This document shows, piece by piece, positions 26,267 to 64,000 of a stretch of 64,000 bases of DNA. The position numbers and the translations under genes are program-made. This DNA is from Methanohalophilus sp. (GTDB lineage: Archaea; Halobacteriota; Methanosarcinia; Methanosarcinales; Methanosarcinaceae), in contig NZ_JASGLW010000002.1 of assembly GCF_030156785.1 (NCBI RefSeq), forward strand, positions 1 through 64,000. Reading direction: 5' to 3'. Numbering within the stretch: position 1 is the first letter of the stretch; each line of letters begins with the position of its first letter. The notes below the pieces were generated by a model. It saw only the letters and a list, made by a program, of their open reading frames with translations. It had not been told where the DNA came from and searched no databases.

Positions 26267-28168
26267 TCACCTGAACTTCACCACAGGACAGCTATCAATA
26301 CAATTGCCGCAGCTTGTGCAGCTCTCATCAACATAAGCCTGCTTCTCCTTCAGTGAAATAGCACTTACAGGACACCTCCCCACACAAACACCACAACCCA
26401 CACATCCAAGTGCCCGAAGCACGTTTTTTTCGGTTTTTCGAAGCAGTGCCTTGGTCTTGTCCTCTGACTTTGCCCTTGCAATGATATTACCGGATGCAAA
26501 AAGCTGAACCGATTTGTCGCCGGAATGGATATAAACAACACCGGTCGTATATGCCGTTTTCCCGATTGTATTCATCATACCGGTGTCCAGGATATGATCG
26601 AGATCAATGGCTGCCGAGAAACTTCCTTCTGCCGTGATTTCACCAGTTTTACAGGGCCTGTAGCCAGAGCTTGATTTGAATGTGAGTTTGGTATTGTCTT
26701 TCCGGGTTGGAAGGATGGTAATATCCAACTTATCAGCTATCTCCCTTATTGCGGGAGGATGCTTTTTCCATCTCCACATCCCGTACTCTGCCCAGCCTGG
26801 ATCAAGCCCCATCTTCTCTGCGTGTCTGAGGAGCATTTCTTGAAGCCTGCGGTCAAGTTCCGGGTGTGTTTCCTTAAGATTCATAAGATCTGCAAGTGAG
26901 GAAGACGGGCAGAGCCAGCAGCCAATGCGATCAAACCCTTTTTCGTAAAGCGGATTGTAGGGCAGTTTGTTCTTTAAAATGTAGAGCCAGACGTGCATAG
27001 CAGTCCAGTCCTGTATCGGGGAAGCAGCTGTCTGGTTTGCAACCCACGGATTTTTCCAGACTCGATTGCTTCGTGCACGGGTGGCGGATTCATACTTGCG
27101 CTGTCCCACAAAAGTCAGGCAACCTTTTTCGTAATTGTCTTCAATAAGCTGGGTGATGGGGCCAAGCTTGCATATCTTGCAGCACCACCGCATTTCAAGG
27201 GTAGGGGGTCCGAAATCATCAACTGATTCCCAGAATGCGTTTCCCACACTTTTCACAGTGGGATTCTTGCCGTAAAACTCTGCGACATCCTTCACATTTT
27301 GAAGAGTTTCCGGAAATTCCAGTCCGGTATCTGCAAAAATAATCTCATAATCTTTTGTGCAGTCATGCACAAGATGCAATGTAGCTAGGCTGTCTTTCCC
27401 ACCGGAATAAGATACCGAAAGGGGTCTGTTCACCTTCTCAATGGTGTTGTGGATAAACTCATATGCCTCCTTCTGGAATTTATCCAGAATTTGTGAGTTT
27501 GCCTCAATAACATCATCCCAGTTTTTGAGGGCAGGTGCAACATCAGGTGTTTTCCTTCCCTTATCTTTCTTACGTGGCTTGACAGCAATACCTTTCTTTG
27601 CTTCTGCCATTTCCGGACCGCTCATCTTCGCCCGACCGGTTGCAACGACCCGTTTTTCGGAATTGATTACAATCACTTCATCTTCAGGCATGATGGAGGG
27701 GTCCGCATCAATCACACCAGGTGCGAGTAAGCTTGCTCCTTTGAGCAGGAATTTTTTCACTTCATCTTCTATCAAAACCCAACCTTTCAGTTCTCCTGCA
27801 TCCGTGGCTACAATCCGCTTTGCACCAGCAATCCGTGGAAGCATCATCCATCTCAGTTTTTCGGTTTCATATCGGATGCTTGCGATTACCTGTCCGTCTG
27901 TGATAATTTCGTCCATCCGGTCGTCATAGGGTGCCTTGTTAAGGACAACAACATTGTTCTCAGGGAGAAGCGGACGATTGAATTGCTCCTTTGCAATCCG
28001 GTTAATGTGCTTTATGTCATGTTCAAAAGCAGGGCGAATATCACCGGGAGGTGTAATCTCCACATGGAATGTTTTCTTTCCACATCCGCATTTCTTCCCA
28101 AGTACAGGCACATTACAATCAGGGCACCAGTAGAGTAAAAGGTCTCCCAGATAGACAGGTTTTGACAT
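26267..28168 (-). CDS. PAPS-reductase-family protein fused to zinc ribbon, PUA and ferredoxin domains
   Basis: The 633-residue protein starts with a zinc ribbon (YWCPDCNVPVLGKKCGCGK), then a PUA-like region (about 130-195). A PP-loop ATPase of the PAPS reductase family follows, with SYSGGKDSLATLHL near 253-266. Cysteine pairs (WCCKICKLG; GCWLCPSS) sit in the catalytic domain. The C-terminus has two 4Fe-4S motifs (CVGCGVCVGRCP and CTSCGNCIDSCP). Such fusions are common in methanogens. PUA suggests an RNA substrate, so tRNA or rRNA thiolation is as plausible as sulfate reduction. Confidence 0.85.
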   Translation of the reverse strand: MSKPVYLGDLLLYWCPDCNVPVLGKKCGCGKKTFHVEITPPGDIRPAFEHDIKHINRIAKEQFNRPLLPENNVVVLNKAPYDDRMDEIITDGQVIASIRYETEKLRWMMLPRIAGAKRIVATDAGELKGWVLIEDEVKKFLLKGASLLAPGVIDADPSIMPEDEVIVINSEKRVVATGRAKMSGPEMAEAKKGIAVKPRKKDKGRKTPDVAPALKNWDDVIEANSQILDKFQKEAYEFIHNTIEKVNRPLSVSYSGGKDSLATLHLVHDCTKDYEIIFADTGLEFPETLQNVKDVAEFYGKNPTVKSVGNAFWESVDDFGPPTLEMRWCCKICKLGPITQLIEDNYEKGCLTFVGQRKYESATRARSNRVWKNPWVANQTAASPIQDWTAMHVWLYILKNKLPYNPLYEKGFDRIGCWLCPSSSLADLMNLKETHPELDRRLQEMLLRHAEKMGLDPGWAEYGMWRWKKHPPAIREIADKLDITILPTRKDNTKLTFKSSSGYRPCKTGEITAEGSFSAAIDLDHILDTGMMNTIGKTAYTTGVVYIHSGDKSVQLFASGNIIARAKSEDKTKALLRKTEKNVLRALGCVGCGVCVGRCPVSAISLKEKQAYVDESCTSCGNCIDSCPVVKFR

Positions 28169-32528: not shown

Positions 32529-33047
32529 ATGATCGAAGTAGAGGTCAAGGCGAGGCTTTCTCTTACCCGCGCAAGGGAAGTCTTAAAAGAACTTAAAGCA
32601 AAATTTGTGGAATCAGAGAAGCATTATGACATCTATTACAATGCTCCTCACCGCAATTTTGCCATAACAGATGAAGCCCTCAGACTTCGATTGGTAAACG
32701 GCCGTTCGGTTATGACTTACAAGGGTGAGAAACTGGATGACCTTACAAAGAGCCGAGAAGAGCTCCAGACCACAGTGGAATGGGATTCAACATAGGCAAT
32801 CTTGGATCGACTGGGTTTCACAAAAGCGGCAACAGTTGAAAAACTTCGCGATGTATATAAAGTAGGGGATATTACTGTTTGTCTCGATCAGGTAGACTCA
32901 CTGGGCGAATTTATTGAATTCGAACTGTTTTCAGAAAAAAGCATTGAAGAAAGCCGTGACAAGCTTTTTGAGCTTATGGAGAAATTTGGTTTGGGAGTAG
33001 ACGATTCCATCAGAAAATCTTATATGGAATTGGTGATGGGTGAATAA
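32529..33047 (+). CDS. CYTH-domain protein (class IV adenylate cyclase-like) with in-frame TAG
   Basis: Read across the TAG at 32793-32795, this is a 172-residue CYTH protein of normal length. The first part has the EVEVKARL signature, ALRLRLVNG and MTYKGEKLD; the second has LDRLGFTKAATVEKLRDVYK, VCLDQVDSLGEFIEFEL and IRKSYMEL. Both parts are in one frame with no shift, and the TAG falls at codon 89, between TTVEWDST and AILDRLGF, where relatives have a continuous helix. Pyrrolysine or suppression is likely; a nonsense mutation is the alternative. CYTH enzymes act on triphosphates such as ATP or thiamine triphosphate. The gene starts 4 bp after the DUF35 gene. Confidence 0.82.
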
Positions 33048-39663: not shown

Positions 39664-39721
39664 ATTTTCCATGCACAAATAAGGATTTATGAAGATAACA
39701 TTCAGTCAAAAGGGTATTGAT

Positions 39722-41344
39722 ATGAAAGGAAGTGACCTGTTTGTCAGGTGTCTGGAAAATGAAGGCGTAGAGTATATTTTTGGGATACCGGGAGAGGAAA
39801 CACTGGATTTTATGGATTCTCTTTCCAGATCAGACATCGAATTTATTGTGGTAAGGCATGAGCAGTCTGCAGCATTCATGGCAGATGCCTACGGACGTTT
39901 GGTGGGCAGGCCAGGAGTATGCCTTTCAACACTGGGGCCGGGCGCTACCAATCTCATAACAGGTGTTGCAGATGCGCATCTTGACAGAGCTCCTCTTGTG
40001 GCAATTACGGGGCAAGGCTCTCTTGACAGGGCATATAAGGAATCGCATCAGATTCTGGATGTTGTGGGATTATTCGACAAAATTACCTCATGGAATGCAA
40101 TCGCCACTGCTGCTCACCAGATTCCAGAGCTGGTAGGGAAGGCTTTTGACATAGCAACGGATGTACCGGGCGCTACCCATATTGAATTGCCTGAAGATGT
40201 TGCTTCGCAGGAAACCGACGCAATACCTCTTGAGAAAAAAAGTTACTCTCATTCCTGCAATTTCGAAGAAAATGAATTGCATAAAGCACTTGAAATGATT
40301 TCGGGAGCTTCAAAGCCATTAATCATCGCAGGAAACGGTGTGATTCGTGAAAACGCTTCTGCCGAGCTGGAACAGTTTGTAGATGCTTCGAATATAGGCG
40401 TTGTAACCACTTTCATGGGAAAAGGTGCAATCAGTGCAGACAATGATCATTTCATTGGTTCTATGGGTATGTCAGAGAAGGATTACATCATGTGCGGACT
40501 CGATGTGGCAGATGTTGTTATTACTGTGGGGTTTGATTCAGTGGAATACAGTCCTGATCACTGGAACAAAAGGGCTACCACAAAAATAATTCATGTACAC
40601 ACCAGGCATCCTGAAATAGAATCCAGCTACATACCCGAATGTGCGCTTATAGGTTCACTTAAGACAACTCTCAAAGCAATGCTTCATAAAATACATGCTA
40701 AGGAATTCCCGAAATATTATCGCAATATCAAGGTTTCCATGGAAAATGAGTTGCTTAATTACAGGGATGATCCGTCTTTTCCGATGAAGCCCCAGCGCAT
40801 TATCTGGGAAGTGCGACAAATTCTGGATCGGGGGGACATTCTGGTAAGTGACGTGGGCGCTCACAAACTCTGGATCGGGAGGCTGTATCCCGCATTTGCC
40901 CCGAATACAGTGCTGATGTCAAACGGGCTGGCTTCCATGGGCTTTGCCCTTCCTGCAGCAATAGCTTCCTGTCTTGTACATCCTGAAAAGAAAATAGTGG
41001 CAATTTCCGGAGACGCAGGATTCCTTATGAACCTGCAGGATCTGGAAACCGCTGTAAGACTGGATTGCGATCTTGTTATTGTTATTTTTGATGATTCATC
41101 CTATGGACTCATCGAGTGGGAATGCAACAGGGAATTTGGCTCTTCTTTTGGTACTACTTTCAAAAATCCCGACTTTGTGGAACTTGCGCATAGTTTTGGT
41201 GCTAGGGGTGTACGTGTGCGCAGCGCTAATGAACTGAGTAATATTTTTCAGGATGCTTTCAATGAGGGTGGCGTCTGGCTTGTGGATGTCCCGGTGGATT
41301 ACTCGGAAAATCTGAAGCTCACATCAATAATGGAAGGTAAATAG
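39722..41344 (+). CDS. Thiamine-diphosphate enzyme, acetolactate synthase large-subunit family
   Basis: The 540-residue product has the three ThDP-enzyme domains. The catalytic glutamate is in VVRHEQSAAFMADAYGR, the N-terminal domain ends near residue 180, and the ThDP-binding block is SGDAGFLMNLQDLETAVRL followed by FDDSSYGLIEWE. GDA replaces the common GDG. No small regulatory subunit is nearby, so it may be a catabolic or special-purpose enzyme working with the aldehyde dehydrogenase before it. The ATG at 39722 has AAGGG upstream. It ends in TAG, with TAA three codons later. Confidence 0.85.
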   Translation: MKGSDLFVRCLENEGVEYIFGIPGEETLDFMDSLSRSDIEFIVVRHEQSAAFMADAYGRLVGRPGVCLSTLGPGATNLITGVADAHLDRAPLVAITGQGSLDRAYKESHQILDVVGLFDKITSWNAIATAAHQIPELVGKAFDIATDVPGATHIELPEDVASQETDAIPLEKKSYSHSCNFEENELHKALEMISGASKPLIIAGNGVIRENASAELEQFVDASNIGVVTTFMGKGAISADNDHFIGSMGMSEKDYIMCGLDVADVVITVGFDSVEYSPDHWNKRATTKIIHVHTRHPEIESSYIPECALIGSLKTTLKAMLHKIHAKEFPKYYRNIKVSMENELLNYRDDPSFPMKPQRIIWEVRQILDRGDILVSDVGAHKLWIGRLYPAFAPNTVLMSNGLASMGFALPAAIASCLVHPEKKIVAISGDAGFLMNLQDLETAVRLDCDLVIVIFDDSSYGLIEWECNREFGSSFGTTFKNPDFVELAHSFGARGVRVRSANELSNIFQDAFNEGGVWLVDVPVDYSENLKLTSIMEGK

Positions 41345-41407
41345 TGTGACATTTAAGGGATTATTTACACATTGGTATGTTTTTGTAGCAGCAGGTTAGG
41401 TATTGGT

Positions 41408-60055: not shown

Positions 60056-60604
60056 ATGGTTGACATCGTTGTAAATTCATCTGAACGTATACGTAAAATG
60101 GTCTATGCTTCCCTGTTTGCATCAATGAGTTCAGTAGGGGCCTACATGGTAATCCCAATAGGTGGGCCGGTTCCGATAACCCTTCAGTTATTGTTTGTAT
60201 TCTTTGCGGGGGCATTCTTAGGTGCTCGTTGGGGTATGACCAGCATGCTTGTTTACCTTCTTCTTGGAATTGCAGGACTCCCTGTTTTTGCCGGAGGTGC
60301 AGCAGGGTTGGGTGTGCTTCTTGGTCCCACAGGTGGTTACTTGTTAGGATTTGTGGCAGCAGCCTATGTGATAGGTTATCTGGTAGAGCATTTCCCCACC
60401 AAATCATTTTTCCGTGTTTCACTCTATTTCCTTGCGGGAATGGTTACAATTTACGTATTTGGCTATCTGCAGCTTATTTATGTGGCATCCCTCACCCCCA
60501 AGGAAGCATTCATTATAGGGATAGCTCCGTTTATACTTCTTGATGCCATTAAGGCGATCGCTGCGGCCGTATTGTTTACACACTTGGATATGAGCTATGA
60601 TTGA
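60056..60604 (+). CDS. bioY: BioY-family biotin-binding S component of an ECF transporter
   Basis: BioY is the membrane S component that binds biotin. The 182-residue protein has five to six hydrophobic helices and the family motifs GGPVPITLQ, GARWG, and LLGPTGGYLLGF. It is followed by two ATPase genes and the T component, giving a complete ECF module. An upstream TTG at 60035 is open, but the TATA box position fits the ATG at 60056. The last eight bases overlap ecfA1. Confidence 0.93.
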   Translation: MVDIVVNSSERIRKMVYASLFASMSSVGAYMVIPIGGPVPITLQLLFVFFAGAFLGARWGMTSMLVYLLLGIAGLPVFAGGAAGLGVLLGPTGGYLLGFVAAAYVIGYLVEHFPTKSFFRVSLYFLAGMVTIYVFGYLQLIYVASLTPKEAFIIGIAPFILLDAIKAIAAAVLFTHLDMSYD

Positions 60605-61406
60605 AACAAAAAATCTGTCATTTCGGTATTCTGGGGATGATTACATCCTCAGGAATATAAATATTAAGATAACAACCGGTGAATATGTTGCAATTGTGGG
60701 GGAGAACGGTAGTGGTAAATCAACTCTGGCGCGACATCTCAACGGCTTGTTGATTCCTACTGAAGGTTCTGTGAACGTTTTTGGAATGAACACGGCTGAT
60801 AAATCCTGCTTGCAGCAAATCCGTCAGACAGTAGGAATGGTTTTTCAGGATCCAATGACACAATTTGTAGGTGCTACGGTTTGGGAAGACGTCGCTTTTG
60901 GGCCATCAAACCTCTGCTTTCCCCGGAAGGAAATGCTTGAAGCTATTGAGTCATCACTTGCAAGTGTTGGAATGGATATGTTCAAAAAGAGATCCCCTTC
61001 CCAGCTCAGCGGTGGCCAGATGCAGCTGGCTGCAATTGCAGGAGTATTGGCAATGAAACCAAAATGCCTGGTTTTTGATGAATCGGTTTCAATGCTTGAT
61101 TCAGATACCAAAGAAAAAATAATTTCCGTAATCAGAAAATTGCATTCCGAAGGAAAAACTATCATCCAAATTGCTCACAATCTGGATGAAATAAACCACG
61201 CTGAGAGGGTTATTGCTCTGAAAAACGGTGAGGTTTTCTATGACGGGAAAATGGAACCTTTTCTTGGAGATTAGATCTTCTGGGAAGCAGGTCTGGAAAT
61301 ACCTCCCATTATGGAACTTTCCCTGAGACTCAAGCAGGCAGGTATTGTTGAAAATATATCATGTGATGTGAATGTATTGGTGGAGGGCATATGCCGATTC
61401 AGGTAA
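60597..61406 (+). CDS. ecfA1: ECF transporter ATPase EcfA1, with in-frame TAG
   Basis: Reading across the TAG at 61272-61274 gives a 269-residue ATPase. Walker A is GENGSGKST, the Q-loop region FQDPMTQFVGATVWEDVAFG, signature LSGGQ and Walker B CLVFDES. The 43 codons after the TAG (codon 226), IFWEAGLEIPPIMELSLRL and onward, match the C-terminal segment (GL-x-x-P-x-x-x-x-L) found in other CbiO/EcfA proteins. They end in TAA at 61404 inside the start of ecfA2. If TAG were a stop, the ATPase would lack this segment and leave an odd 116-base gap. UAG decoding, probably as pyrrolysine, is likely. Confidence 0.85.
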
Positions 61407-62203
61407 AAAACATAAGCTTTTCCTATTCAAATGATAAACCGGTGCTATCCGGCATTTCTATTTGTCTGAACAGGGGTGAAGTCTCCGGGCTTATGGGAGA
61501 CATTGGTTCTGGCAAATCCACGCTTATCAGACATCTCAATGGGTTGCTACTACCAGATAGTGGGTTGGTTATAGTGGATGATATTCCTGCATCTAATAAA
61601 AAAGCCAGAAAGCTTGTTGGTGTTCTTTTCCAGCACCCTTCCAGACAGTTGTTTGAACAAACTGTTTTCGATGACATCGCATTCGGTCCGAAAAATTATG
61701 GTTTAAAAGGGAATGACCTCAAAAAAACAGTCTTTGAAGCTGCAGATCTTGTGGGTCTGGGAAAAGAGTTGCTTGATCTTTCACCTCACAGGTTGAGTGG
61801 TGGCGAGAAAAAACTTGCATGTTTTGCAGGTATAATTGCCTGTTCACCTCGCTATTTGATTCTTGACGAACCTTTCAGTGGATTGGATAGTGTTTCCCGA
61901 AGCAGGATGGTAAATAGCATTGTAAAGTTGAAAGCAAGTGGATGTGGGATTTTAATAGCATCCCATCATTTTGATACATTTGTCGGGTTAGTTGACAGGA
62001 TTCTATTCCTTGAAAATGGGGGAATTGTTTATGACGGATCTCCAGAGTCCTTTGCTTCAGATTACCCTTTGCAATCTTCCACAATTGCTGCATTGATTTC
62101 CGTATTGCAAAGAAAGGGTATAGACATATCTCCTACGGATTTCACAGTTGAAAAAGCATTTGAAGCAATTCTCTCTGCCTGTAAAAAGGAGGGCACTGGA
62201 TGA
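61391..62203 (+). CDS. ecfA2: ECF transporter ATPase EcfA2
   Basis: The 270-residue ABC ATPase has Walker A GDIGSGKST, Q-loop FQHPSRQLFEQTVFDDIAFGP, signature LSGGEKK and Walker B YLILDEPFSGLD. It pairs with EcfA1 to drive the T component. It is complete without any internal TAG. Its ATG overlaps the read-through end of ecfA1, has GGAGGG before it, and its stop overlaps ecfT (ATGA). Confidence 0.94.
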   Translation: MPIQVKNISFSYSNDKPVLSGISICLNRGEVSGLMGDIGSGKSTLIRHLNGLLLPDSGLVIVDDIPASNKKARKLVGVLFQHPSRQLFEQTVFDDIAFGPKNYGLKGNDLKKTVFEAADLVGLGKELLDLSPHRLSGGEKKLACFAGIIACSPRYLILDEPFSGLDSVSRSRMVNSIVKLKASGCGILIASHHFDTFVGLVDRILFLENGGIVYDGSPESFASDYPLQSSTIAALISVLQRKGIDISPTDFTVEKAFEAILSACKKEGTG

Positions 62204-62976
62204 GAAAATATGATTTTTTTGGGTTTGTTATAAGCAACTCATTTGTTCATAAACTAGATCCAAGAGCCAAGCTTTTTGCCCTTATTGGATTAAGCATTTT
62301 AATATTCAGGATATCGGCATTTCAGAATCTGCTTTTTCCTTTAACCATCTTCATTATGGCAGCATATTTTTCCGGGACATCGATAAAGAGACATGTTTTG
62401 TCTGTCCGTCCACTAATTCCGTTTCTTATTGCCATCTTCTTGTTCCATTTTCTGCTGACCCCGGGTCAGGAATCAATTGGATTCTAGTGTTTTTCGATTT
62501 CGATTGAAGGACTACTCAGCGGCTTCCTTGTGATAGGACGCTTTATTCTGCTGCTTCTTTTTGCTTCTCTCTTTTCAGCAACGACTTCTCCTGCAATGCT
62601 TGCGCAGGCAATTGAAGCAATTTTAAAACCAATCCCCGTCCACCGGCTGGGGGTGACAACTTCTGAAATTGCCACAATGATGGCATTATCAATGAATTTG
62701 TTTCCGCTTCTTTTGCATTATATGGAAGAAGTCAGGGATGCCCAGCTTTCAAGGGGTTTAGGAAATAAGTTCATGATATCCGGAATATTTTCTCTAATAA
62801 TTCCTTTTTTTTCAGGAAGCATGAGACTGGCAGATGATATCTCAGTTGCGATGGAAAGTCGATGCTATCATGGCGGGTTAAGAACACAACTCTATGAAAT
62901 GAAATATAAAAATACAGACTATGGCTTAACTGCTCTCACAGCCATAATATTATTGATGTCAGTTTTTTATTTATGA
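62200..62976 (+). CDS. ecfT: ECF transporter T component EcfT, with in-frame TAG
   Basis: Reading across the TAG at 62485-62487 (codon 96) gives a 258-residue protein, the normal EcfT length. Before the TAG are FVHKLDPRAKLFALIGLSIL and two helices; after it are IEGLLSGFLVIGRFILLLL, TTSPAML, and the two coupling motifs EVRDAQLSRGL and MESRCYHGGLR that bind the ATPases. All key motifs lie on the distal side, so a stop at TAG would give a useless protein. The frame is unbroken otherwise. Pyrrolysine or UAG suppression is likely. Confidence 0.85.
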
Positions 62977-63169: not shown

Positions 63170-64000
63170 ATGGTATATAGTCTTGGGATTGACGCAGGTG
63201 GTACCTATACTGATGCCGTTTTGTTAAATGACGATGATAATACTATTGTTGCTACAAACAAGGCATTAACAAGTTATCCAGATCCTATCGAGGGAATAAA
63301 AAACGCAATTAATGGGATTGATCCGAATCTACTAAAAGATGTAAGAATTGTATCTGTATCCACAACTCTTTCTACAAATACAATTCTTGAAGGGACTGGA
63401 TTTCCGGTAGCTCTCATACTCATTGGTAACTACGATATTAAACAGGAGCTTCCAACACCATATTATGTAAAAGTTGCAGGCGGTCACAATCACAATGGTG
63501 TGGAACAAGAAGCTCTTGATGAAGCAGGGATACGTAAGTTTGCTGGAGAAGTTAAGGATAAAGTCTCAGCATTTGCAATCTCTTCTTTTTTCAGTATACG
63601 CAACCCGGAGCACGAAGAAAAAGCAAAGGAAATTGTTCGGGAAGTCACAGGTCATCCGGTAGTATGTGCACATGAGTTATCTCTTGATCTCGGTGCATTT
63701 GAAAGGGCAACGACTGCATTTTTCAATGCTCAGCTGCTTCCAATCACGGAAAAATTCATGGAAACGGTTGAGAAGGATATAAAGAGTCGTGGGATTTCTC
63801 CAAAAATATTCATGCTTAAGTGTGATGGATCCGTAATTGGCATCAAGAGTGCCCTCGAAAAACCAATCGAATCTGTTTTTTCAGGACCAGCAGGAAGTCT
63901 TGTAGGTGCTTCTTTCCTTAGCGGAAAAGACACTTGTGCAGTCATCGATGTTGGCGGAACCAGCACGGATATATCAGTAATACAAAACGGTGTTCCTGAG
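63170..64000 (+). CDS. Hydantoinase/oxoprolinase-family protein, partial (runs off the window)
   Basis: The first 277 codons of a gene cut by the window edge. The N-terminus YSLGIDAGGTYTDAVLL is the phosphate-binding motif of the actin-like ATPase fold in hydantoinase A and acetone carboxylase families. Further motifs are STTLSTNTILEG, HELSLDLGAFERATTAFFNA, FSGPAGSLVGA and AVIDVGGTSTDIS. It may hydrolyse a cyclic amide or carboxylate; methanogens carry uncharacterised members. The frame is open to the last base. Confidence 0.85.
   Translation, partial: MVYSLGIDAGGTYTDAVLLNDDDNTIVATNKALTSYPDPIEGIKNAINGIDPNLLKDVRIVSVSTTLSTNTILEGTGFPVALILIGNYDIKQELPTPYYVKVAGGHNHNGVEQEALDEAGIRKFAGEVKDKVSAFAISSFFSIRNPEHEEKAKEIVREVTGHPVVCAHELSLDLGAFERATTAFFNAQLLPITEKFMETVEKDIKSRGISPKIFMLKCDGSVIGIKSALEKPIESVFSGPAGSLVGASFLSGKDTCAVIDVGGTSTDISVIQNGVPE

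Follow-up and report, generated by a model that had tools for sequence, protein, structure and literature searches.

Introduction

Why should an operon for vitamin uptake carry in-frame UAG codons in two of its subunit genes, and do these codons tie biotin import to pyrrolysine? The question is raised by a stretch of 64,000 nucleotides (hereafter the window) at the start of contig NZ_JASGLW010000002.1 of a Methanohalophilus assembly (GCF_030156785.1, G000 below). A sequence-only reading of this DNA had proposed that complete assembly of an energy-coupling factor (ECF) transporter requires UAG decoding and that biotin uptake may thus be linked to pyrrolysine supply or growth on methylamines. 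Here, we examine the operon codon by codon, compare it with its homologues and ask how TAG is used in the rest of the genome.

Results

An ECF biotin transporter operon with two in-frame TAG codons

The codon check confirmed the layout that had been described: bioY, ecfA1, ecfA2 and ecfT form a tightly overlapped operon at 60056-62976 on the forward strand, with overlaps of 8 nt (bioY/ecfA1), 16 nt (ecfA1/ecfA2) and 4 nt (ecfA2/ecfT), one TAG each in ecfA1 and ecfT, and none within bioY or ecfA2 (Table 1). The two TAGs are the sole inner stops of the operon, which contains no inner TAA or TGA and no frameshift. The family assignments are best or clear matches, both ATPases lying under the NCBIfam equivalog cut-offs, and the EcfA1 (TIGR04520) and EcfT (PF02361) matches extend across the respective TAGs. 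A BioY S component, two ABC ATPases and EcfT are thus encoded in one operon, the set by which an ECF biotin transporter is recognised. The four subunits, their motifs and the gene order are like those of known transporters of this type (BioY-EcfA-EcfA'-EcfT; solved relatives 4hzu, 4huq and 5d3m, with 4hzu_T and 5d3m_D for the ecfT product), from which the operon differs by its two in-frame UAG codons. Our literature search found no paper joining pyrrolysine, UAG and energy-coupling factor. Directly downstream, at 63172-64000 of the window, lies a hydantoinase/oxoprolinase-like gene (by sequence similarity), whose visible part is free of TAG.

Table 1. Coordinates of the operon, its two TAG codons and other genes with an inner TAG. 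Plain numbers are positions in the window.
Feature	Coordinates	Strand	Remarks
bioY, biotin-specific S component	60056..60604	+	ATG to TGA, no inner stop; PF02632 2.3e-42
ecfA1, ECF ATPase, frame passing one TAG and ending at TAA	60597..61406	+	ATG start; TIGR04520 7.2e-93, residues 2-265 of 269
TAG in ecfA1, codon 226	61272..61274	+	C-terminal part, downstream of the ABC core; GAA (Glu) in G005
ecfA2, ECF ATPase	61391..62203	+	ATG to TGA, no inner stop; TIGR04521 9.7e-69
ecfT, transmembrane coupling component, frame passing one TAG and ending at TGA	62200..62976	+	ATG start; PF02361 3e-25, residues 13-225
TAG in ecfT, codon 96	62485..62487	+	predicted hairpin turn between membrane helices; CAC (His) in G005
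First presumed EcfT coupling motif, AQLSRG, residues 181-186	62740..62757	+	invariant or nearly invariant columns
Second presumed EcfT coupling motif, MESRCYHGG, residues 218-226	62851..62877	+	invariant or nearly invariant columns
CYTH-domain gene	32529..33047	+	TAG 32793-32795 (Gln in G005); PF01928 1.8e-34 across the TAG
TPP-enzyme (acetolactate-synthase-like) gene	39689..41356	+	TAG 41342-41344, just before the end (Tyr in G005)
mtaC, methanol corrinoid protein gene, adjoins mtaB	L069:5514-6278 (G000:C9:205514-206278)		TAG at codon 161
Glycosyltransferase gene	L127:9828-11039	minus	two inner TAGs in one frame
Hydantoinase/oxoprolinase-like gene (sequence similarity)	L069:12114-14042		TAG at codon 91

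The sequence beyond each TAG

In EcfT, 162 codons follow the TAG, and a run of this length free of TAA and TGA arose in 0.08% of shuffles; the 43 codons that follow the TAG in EcfA1 are free of them in 14% of shuffles, so that the case for EcfA1 is one of homology instead. The alignment to G005, the nearest relative, spans both TAGs (75% identity for EcfA1, 76% for EcfT), which, together with the profile matches, bears out the claim that the frames run on into family-conserved sequence. Pairwise dN/dS against G005, a measure to which both lineages contribute and which is silent on whether selection persisted once the TAGs had arisen, was 0.14 upstream of the EcfA1 TAG and 0.19 downstream of it; for EcfT, in which dS upstream of the TAG was saturated, the downstream value was 0.105. 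Judged by these comparisons, the post-TAG sequence of both proteins is conserved and under purifying selection.

The two codons differ in what a failure to decode them would cost. Residues 1-225 of EcfA1 include the P-loop, LSGGQ and Walker B, as placed by sequence and by alignment to a solved EcfA1, and termination would therefore cost the C-terminal part only. In EcfT, two copies of an Arg-Gly type motif, conserved over 12 and 22 sequences, lie 3' of the TAG, and we take them to be the ATPase-coupling motifs. A ribosome halting at the EcfT UAG would omit both, so that a complete transporter, and with it biotin uptake, would depend on UAG decoding, as the sequence-only reading had argued.

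Pyrrolysine machinery and genome-wide use of TAG

The means to decode UAG are at hand: a complete cassette of pylT(CUA), pylS, pylB, pylC and pylD, the genes that the earlier reading had suggested looking for, lies contiguous on contig C9 (L067 6922-11237), as in a pyrrolysine-decoding organism. pylC was identified by TIGR03909, having been missed by a Pfam search with the PylC N-domain. The mtmB gene of this genome carries TAG at the known position, codon 202. Of the 37 genomes of the family that were searched, 33 have pylS, and it is absent from all 23 searched elsewhere in the order. An altered release factor was also sought; aRF1 is single copy and apparently ordinary, its NIKS and YxC regions intact and genus-like, and this check found nothing that would prevent termination at UAG.

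The assembly is a 1.55-Mb draft in 19 contigs, 94.6% complete, of which 473 kb (30% of the genome) were sampled for TAG usage with a custom codon-usage gene finder. Under the standard code, the genes of this sample end in TGA 205 times, in TAA 221 times and in TAG only 11 times, and 10 of the 11 TAG ends run on in frame into a continuation that is protein-like or, by homology, part of the protein. A looser count, in which a coding continuation had to reach at least 40 codons, gave 10/14 for TAG, 12/214 for TGA and 12/225 for TAA (Fisher p = 1.2e-9); the pooled TAA and TGA value (24/439, about 5%) is what in-frame neighbour genes give as background. The four TAG ends lacking a long continuation are those of pylB, the TPP enzyme and two short low-scoring frames, pylB being the one clear TAG terminator in the sample. 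Among 90 orthologous genes, inner stops were four TAG and one TGA, the latter at the very start of the gene as modelled in G005; this comparison was limited to coding-scored genes, which removes many TGA or TAA "inner stops" that come from spurious frames. Across the 30% sample, then, TAG is a rare terminator and most TAG ends are followed by coding sequence, pylB being a TAG-terminated exception, as expected if UAG is a general sense codon. In two other Methanohalophilus genomes, and likewise in G005 and in G009, TAG ends account for 0-2%, and in a control from another genus, G011, for 8 of 46 genes, none with a coding continuation. G011 (L095-L097) belongs to the same family and bears pylS, and about 17% of its sampled genes do terminate at TAG; the loss of TAG stops thus varies between pyl-bearing genera. 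Inner TAGs number about 12 in 473 kb of G000, the smaller genome, against none clear in 140 kb of G005, and these close species may differ in how fast they gain TAGs.

Genes with an inner TAG are unrelated in function (Table 1), and the sample adds to them an aminotransferase, a PHP protein, an unnamed 183-aa protein and MtmB. The codon-161 TAG of mtaC is absent from six closely matching Methanohalophilus relatives; PMC3941956 had stated that mta genes are free of amber codons. A second mtaC copy (L069:8208-8978) has no inner TAG. An apparent TAG gene at 27453-28130 was rejected as a shadow frame opposite a long conserved gene.

Conservation of the two sites

Each of the 65 other genomes in which EcfT was matched lacks TAG at the EcfT position, each of the 32 others in which EcfA1 was matched lacks it at the EcfA1 position, and G005 has sense codons at both. 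The columns are themselves variable, ranking at the 79th (EcfT) and 83rd (EcfA1) percentiles of the alignments; relatives show G, Y, A, H, S, P, Q and I, among others, in the former and P, E, V, a gap and others in the latter. In the predicted structure of EcfT (mean pLDDT 82, about 68 in block 91-100), residue 96 falls in the turn that links strand 91-94 to strand 99-101. A functionally required pyrrolysine is expected to be kept as UAG in the same column across species, which is the case for neither ecfA1 nor ecfT. Given the frequency of inner TAGs in the sample, about 1.5 operon-sized segments with at least two TAGs are expected per genome, and the double hit in the ECF operon therefore needs no special cause.

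Discussion

We propose, with a probability of roughly 0.8, that UAG serves as a general pyrrolysine sense codon in this organism and that the TAGs of ecfA1 and ecfT are products of neutral drift, which imply no dedicated regulation of biotin uptake by pyrrolysine. The presence of pylTSBCD, the near disappearance of TAG terminators and the scatter of inner TAGs across unrelated genes would be the marks of such a codon, and where UAG is routinely decoded, a change to TAG in a tolerant position would amount to a near-neutral amino-acid replacement. ecfA1 and ecfT would each have gained one TAG, the simplest assumption being that this happened once the lineage had parted from its closest sequenced relative, at sites that appear tolerant, namely the predicted hairpin turn of EcfT and a variable stretch just past the ABC core of EcfA1. 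tRNA-Pyl would insert pyrrolysine at both UAGs, giving a full-length BioY-EcfA1-EcfA2-EcfT transporter. A UAG introduced into a reporter in M. acetivorans gave only 20-30% readthrough (PMC2933860), and on this basis truncated products may dominate.

It could be argued that the operon is decaying, its TAGs being ordinary nonsense mutations and the transporter a pseudogene or truncated. The TAGs are private to this genome and so may be recent, and only one EcfT-like match occurs in the genome. We nevertheless consider decay unlikely: (i), the frames downstream of the TAGs are intact and under purifying selection; (ii), no inner TAA, TGA or frameshift has accumulated in the operon; (iii), the genome-wide excess of coding continuations is limited to TAG; and (iv), loss would be costly. 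Indeed, no biotin synthase scored over the curated cut-off in this genome or in seven sister genomes, the best match being PylB itself, a BioB relative, and biotin stimulates the growth of M. mahii (PMC3017947). Taken together, these last two observations make it likely that the cell has a working transporter whose activity requires decoding of UAG.

The sequence-only reading went further and placed biotin uptake under pyrrolysine supply. As a selected control point, pyrrolysine supply, hence growth on methylamines, would govern the output of complete biotin transporter; a pair of UAGs within one operon would suit such a role, EcfT truncation would be null, and the ecfA1/ecfA2 and ecfA2/ecfT overlaps are such that ecfA1 readthrough could affect downstream translation by coupling. 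We find this quite improbable, and the proposed link was not upheld: neither TAG occurs in any relative searched, both sites are among the most variable, TAG is found in many unrelated genes, the double hit is expected by chance, and biotin matters on non-methylamine substrates too, which weakens the logic of the link. Just as doubtful is the stronger form, in which the UAGs and translational coupling would make the complete transporter track pyrrolysyl-tRNA, with the pyl genes essential even on methanol. The UAG dependence of biotin uptake would be general, common to all UAG-bearing proteins of this organism, and not specific to biotin.

Two further explanations concern the codons themselves. 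A sequencing or assembly error at both positions is conceivable in a draft of 19 contigs, but very unlikely, because errors should create TAA and TGA as often as TAG, whereas the real inner stops in orthologous genes are TAG only, and because the conserved TAG of mtmB shows that the assembly reads this codon properly. That UAG is read as sense by near-cognate readthrough rather than by pyrrolysyl-tRNA is most improbable of all given a dedicated tRNA-Pyl(CUA), PylRS and biosynthesis genes, even if the identity of the inserted amino acid is deduced here from sequence.

Neutral acquisition of UAG, the reading that we favour, has precedents. The closest described case is Thg1, the tRNA-His guanylyltransferase of M. 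acetivorans, whose in-frame UAG, according to the account in PMC2933860 (which cites Heinemann et al. 2009), is decodable as pyrrolysine and dispensable for activity, occurs in that species only and arose by neutral evolution. Like ecfA1 and ecfT, thg1 is a non-methyltransferase gene of a pyl-bearing member of the Methanosarcinaceae with a single UAG, found in one species, at a dispensable position; insertion was tested experimentally for Thg1, whereas the ECF case involves two subunits of one membrane transporter and is argued from sequence evidence. Within the same genus, the citrate synthase of M. mahii, also a housekeeping gene, has an in-frame amber codon proposed to be read as pyrrolysine (PMC3017947), a different gene and one isolated case with no genome-wide count. 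More broadly, amber has been described as seldom used as a stop in Methanosarcinaceae (PMC3941956), and a 2013 survey argued for neutral pyrrolysine genes (PMC3639795). The methylamine methyltransferases MtmB, MtbB and MttB have an in-frame UAG read by the same tRNA-Pyl, but in these enzymes the UAG is shared between species and the pyrrolysine is catalytic, whereas the UAGs of ecfA1 and ecfT are private and sit at variable sites. A 2025 paper is said to describe an archaeal "Pyl code" in which all TAG codons are read as pyrrolysine; as here, TAG is nearly absent as a terminator and is a sense codon in many genes. The ECF importer thus appears to be one example of a wider, already recognised UAG habit and not a special biotin-pyrrolysine switch.

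An expanded genetic code of this kind can lock itself in. With UAG in a vitamin importer, MtaC and an aminotransferase, the pyl system would become impossible to lose even where methylamines are lacking, and one would expect pylT or pylS to be essential for growth of this organism on methanol, in contrast to Methanosarcina, whose pylT mutants are viable. A practical consequence is that standard annotation will split UAG-bearing genes or label them pseudogenes.

The one clear TAG terminator of the sample deserves a comment. pylB ends in TAG (L067:9361-9363, G000:C9) one base before the pylC ATG, and the same end is present in all five other Methanohalophilus genomes checked as well as in G009 and G017 (L217-L222, L224); in Methanohalophilus, readthrough would append 39 residues overlapping pylC. 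A TAG end of pylB had earlier been noted for M. mazei, M. acetivorans and M. burtonii (PMC2933860). Its retention despite the near loss of TAG terminators suggests a possible feedback on pyrrolysine synthesis.
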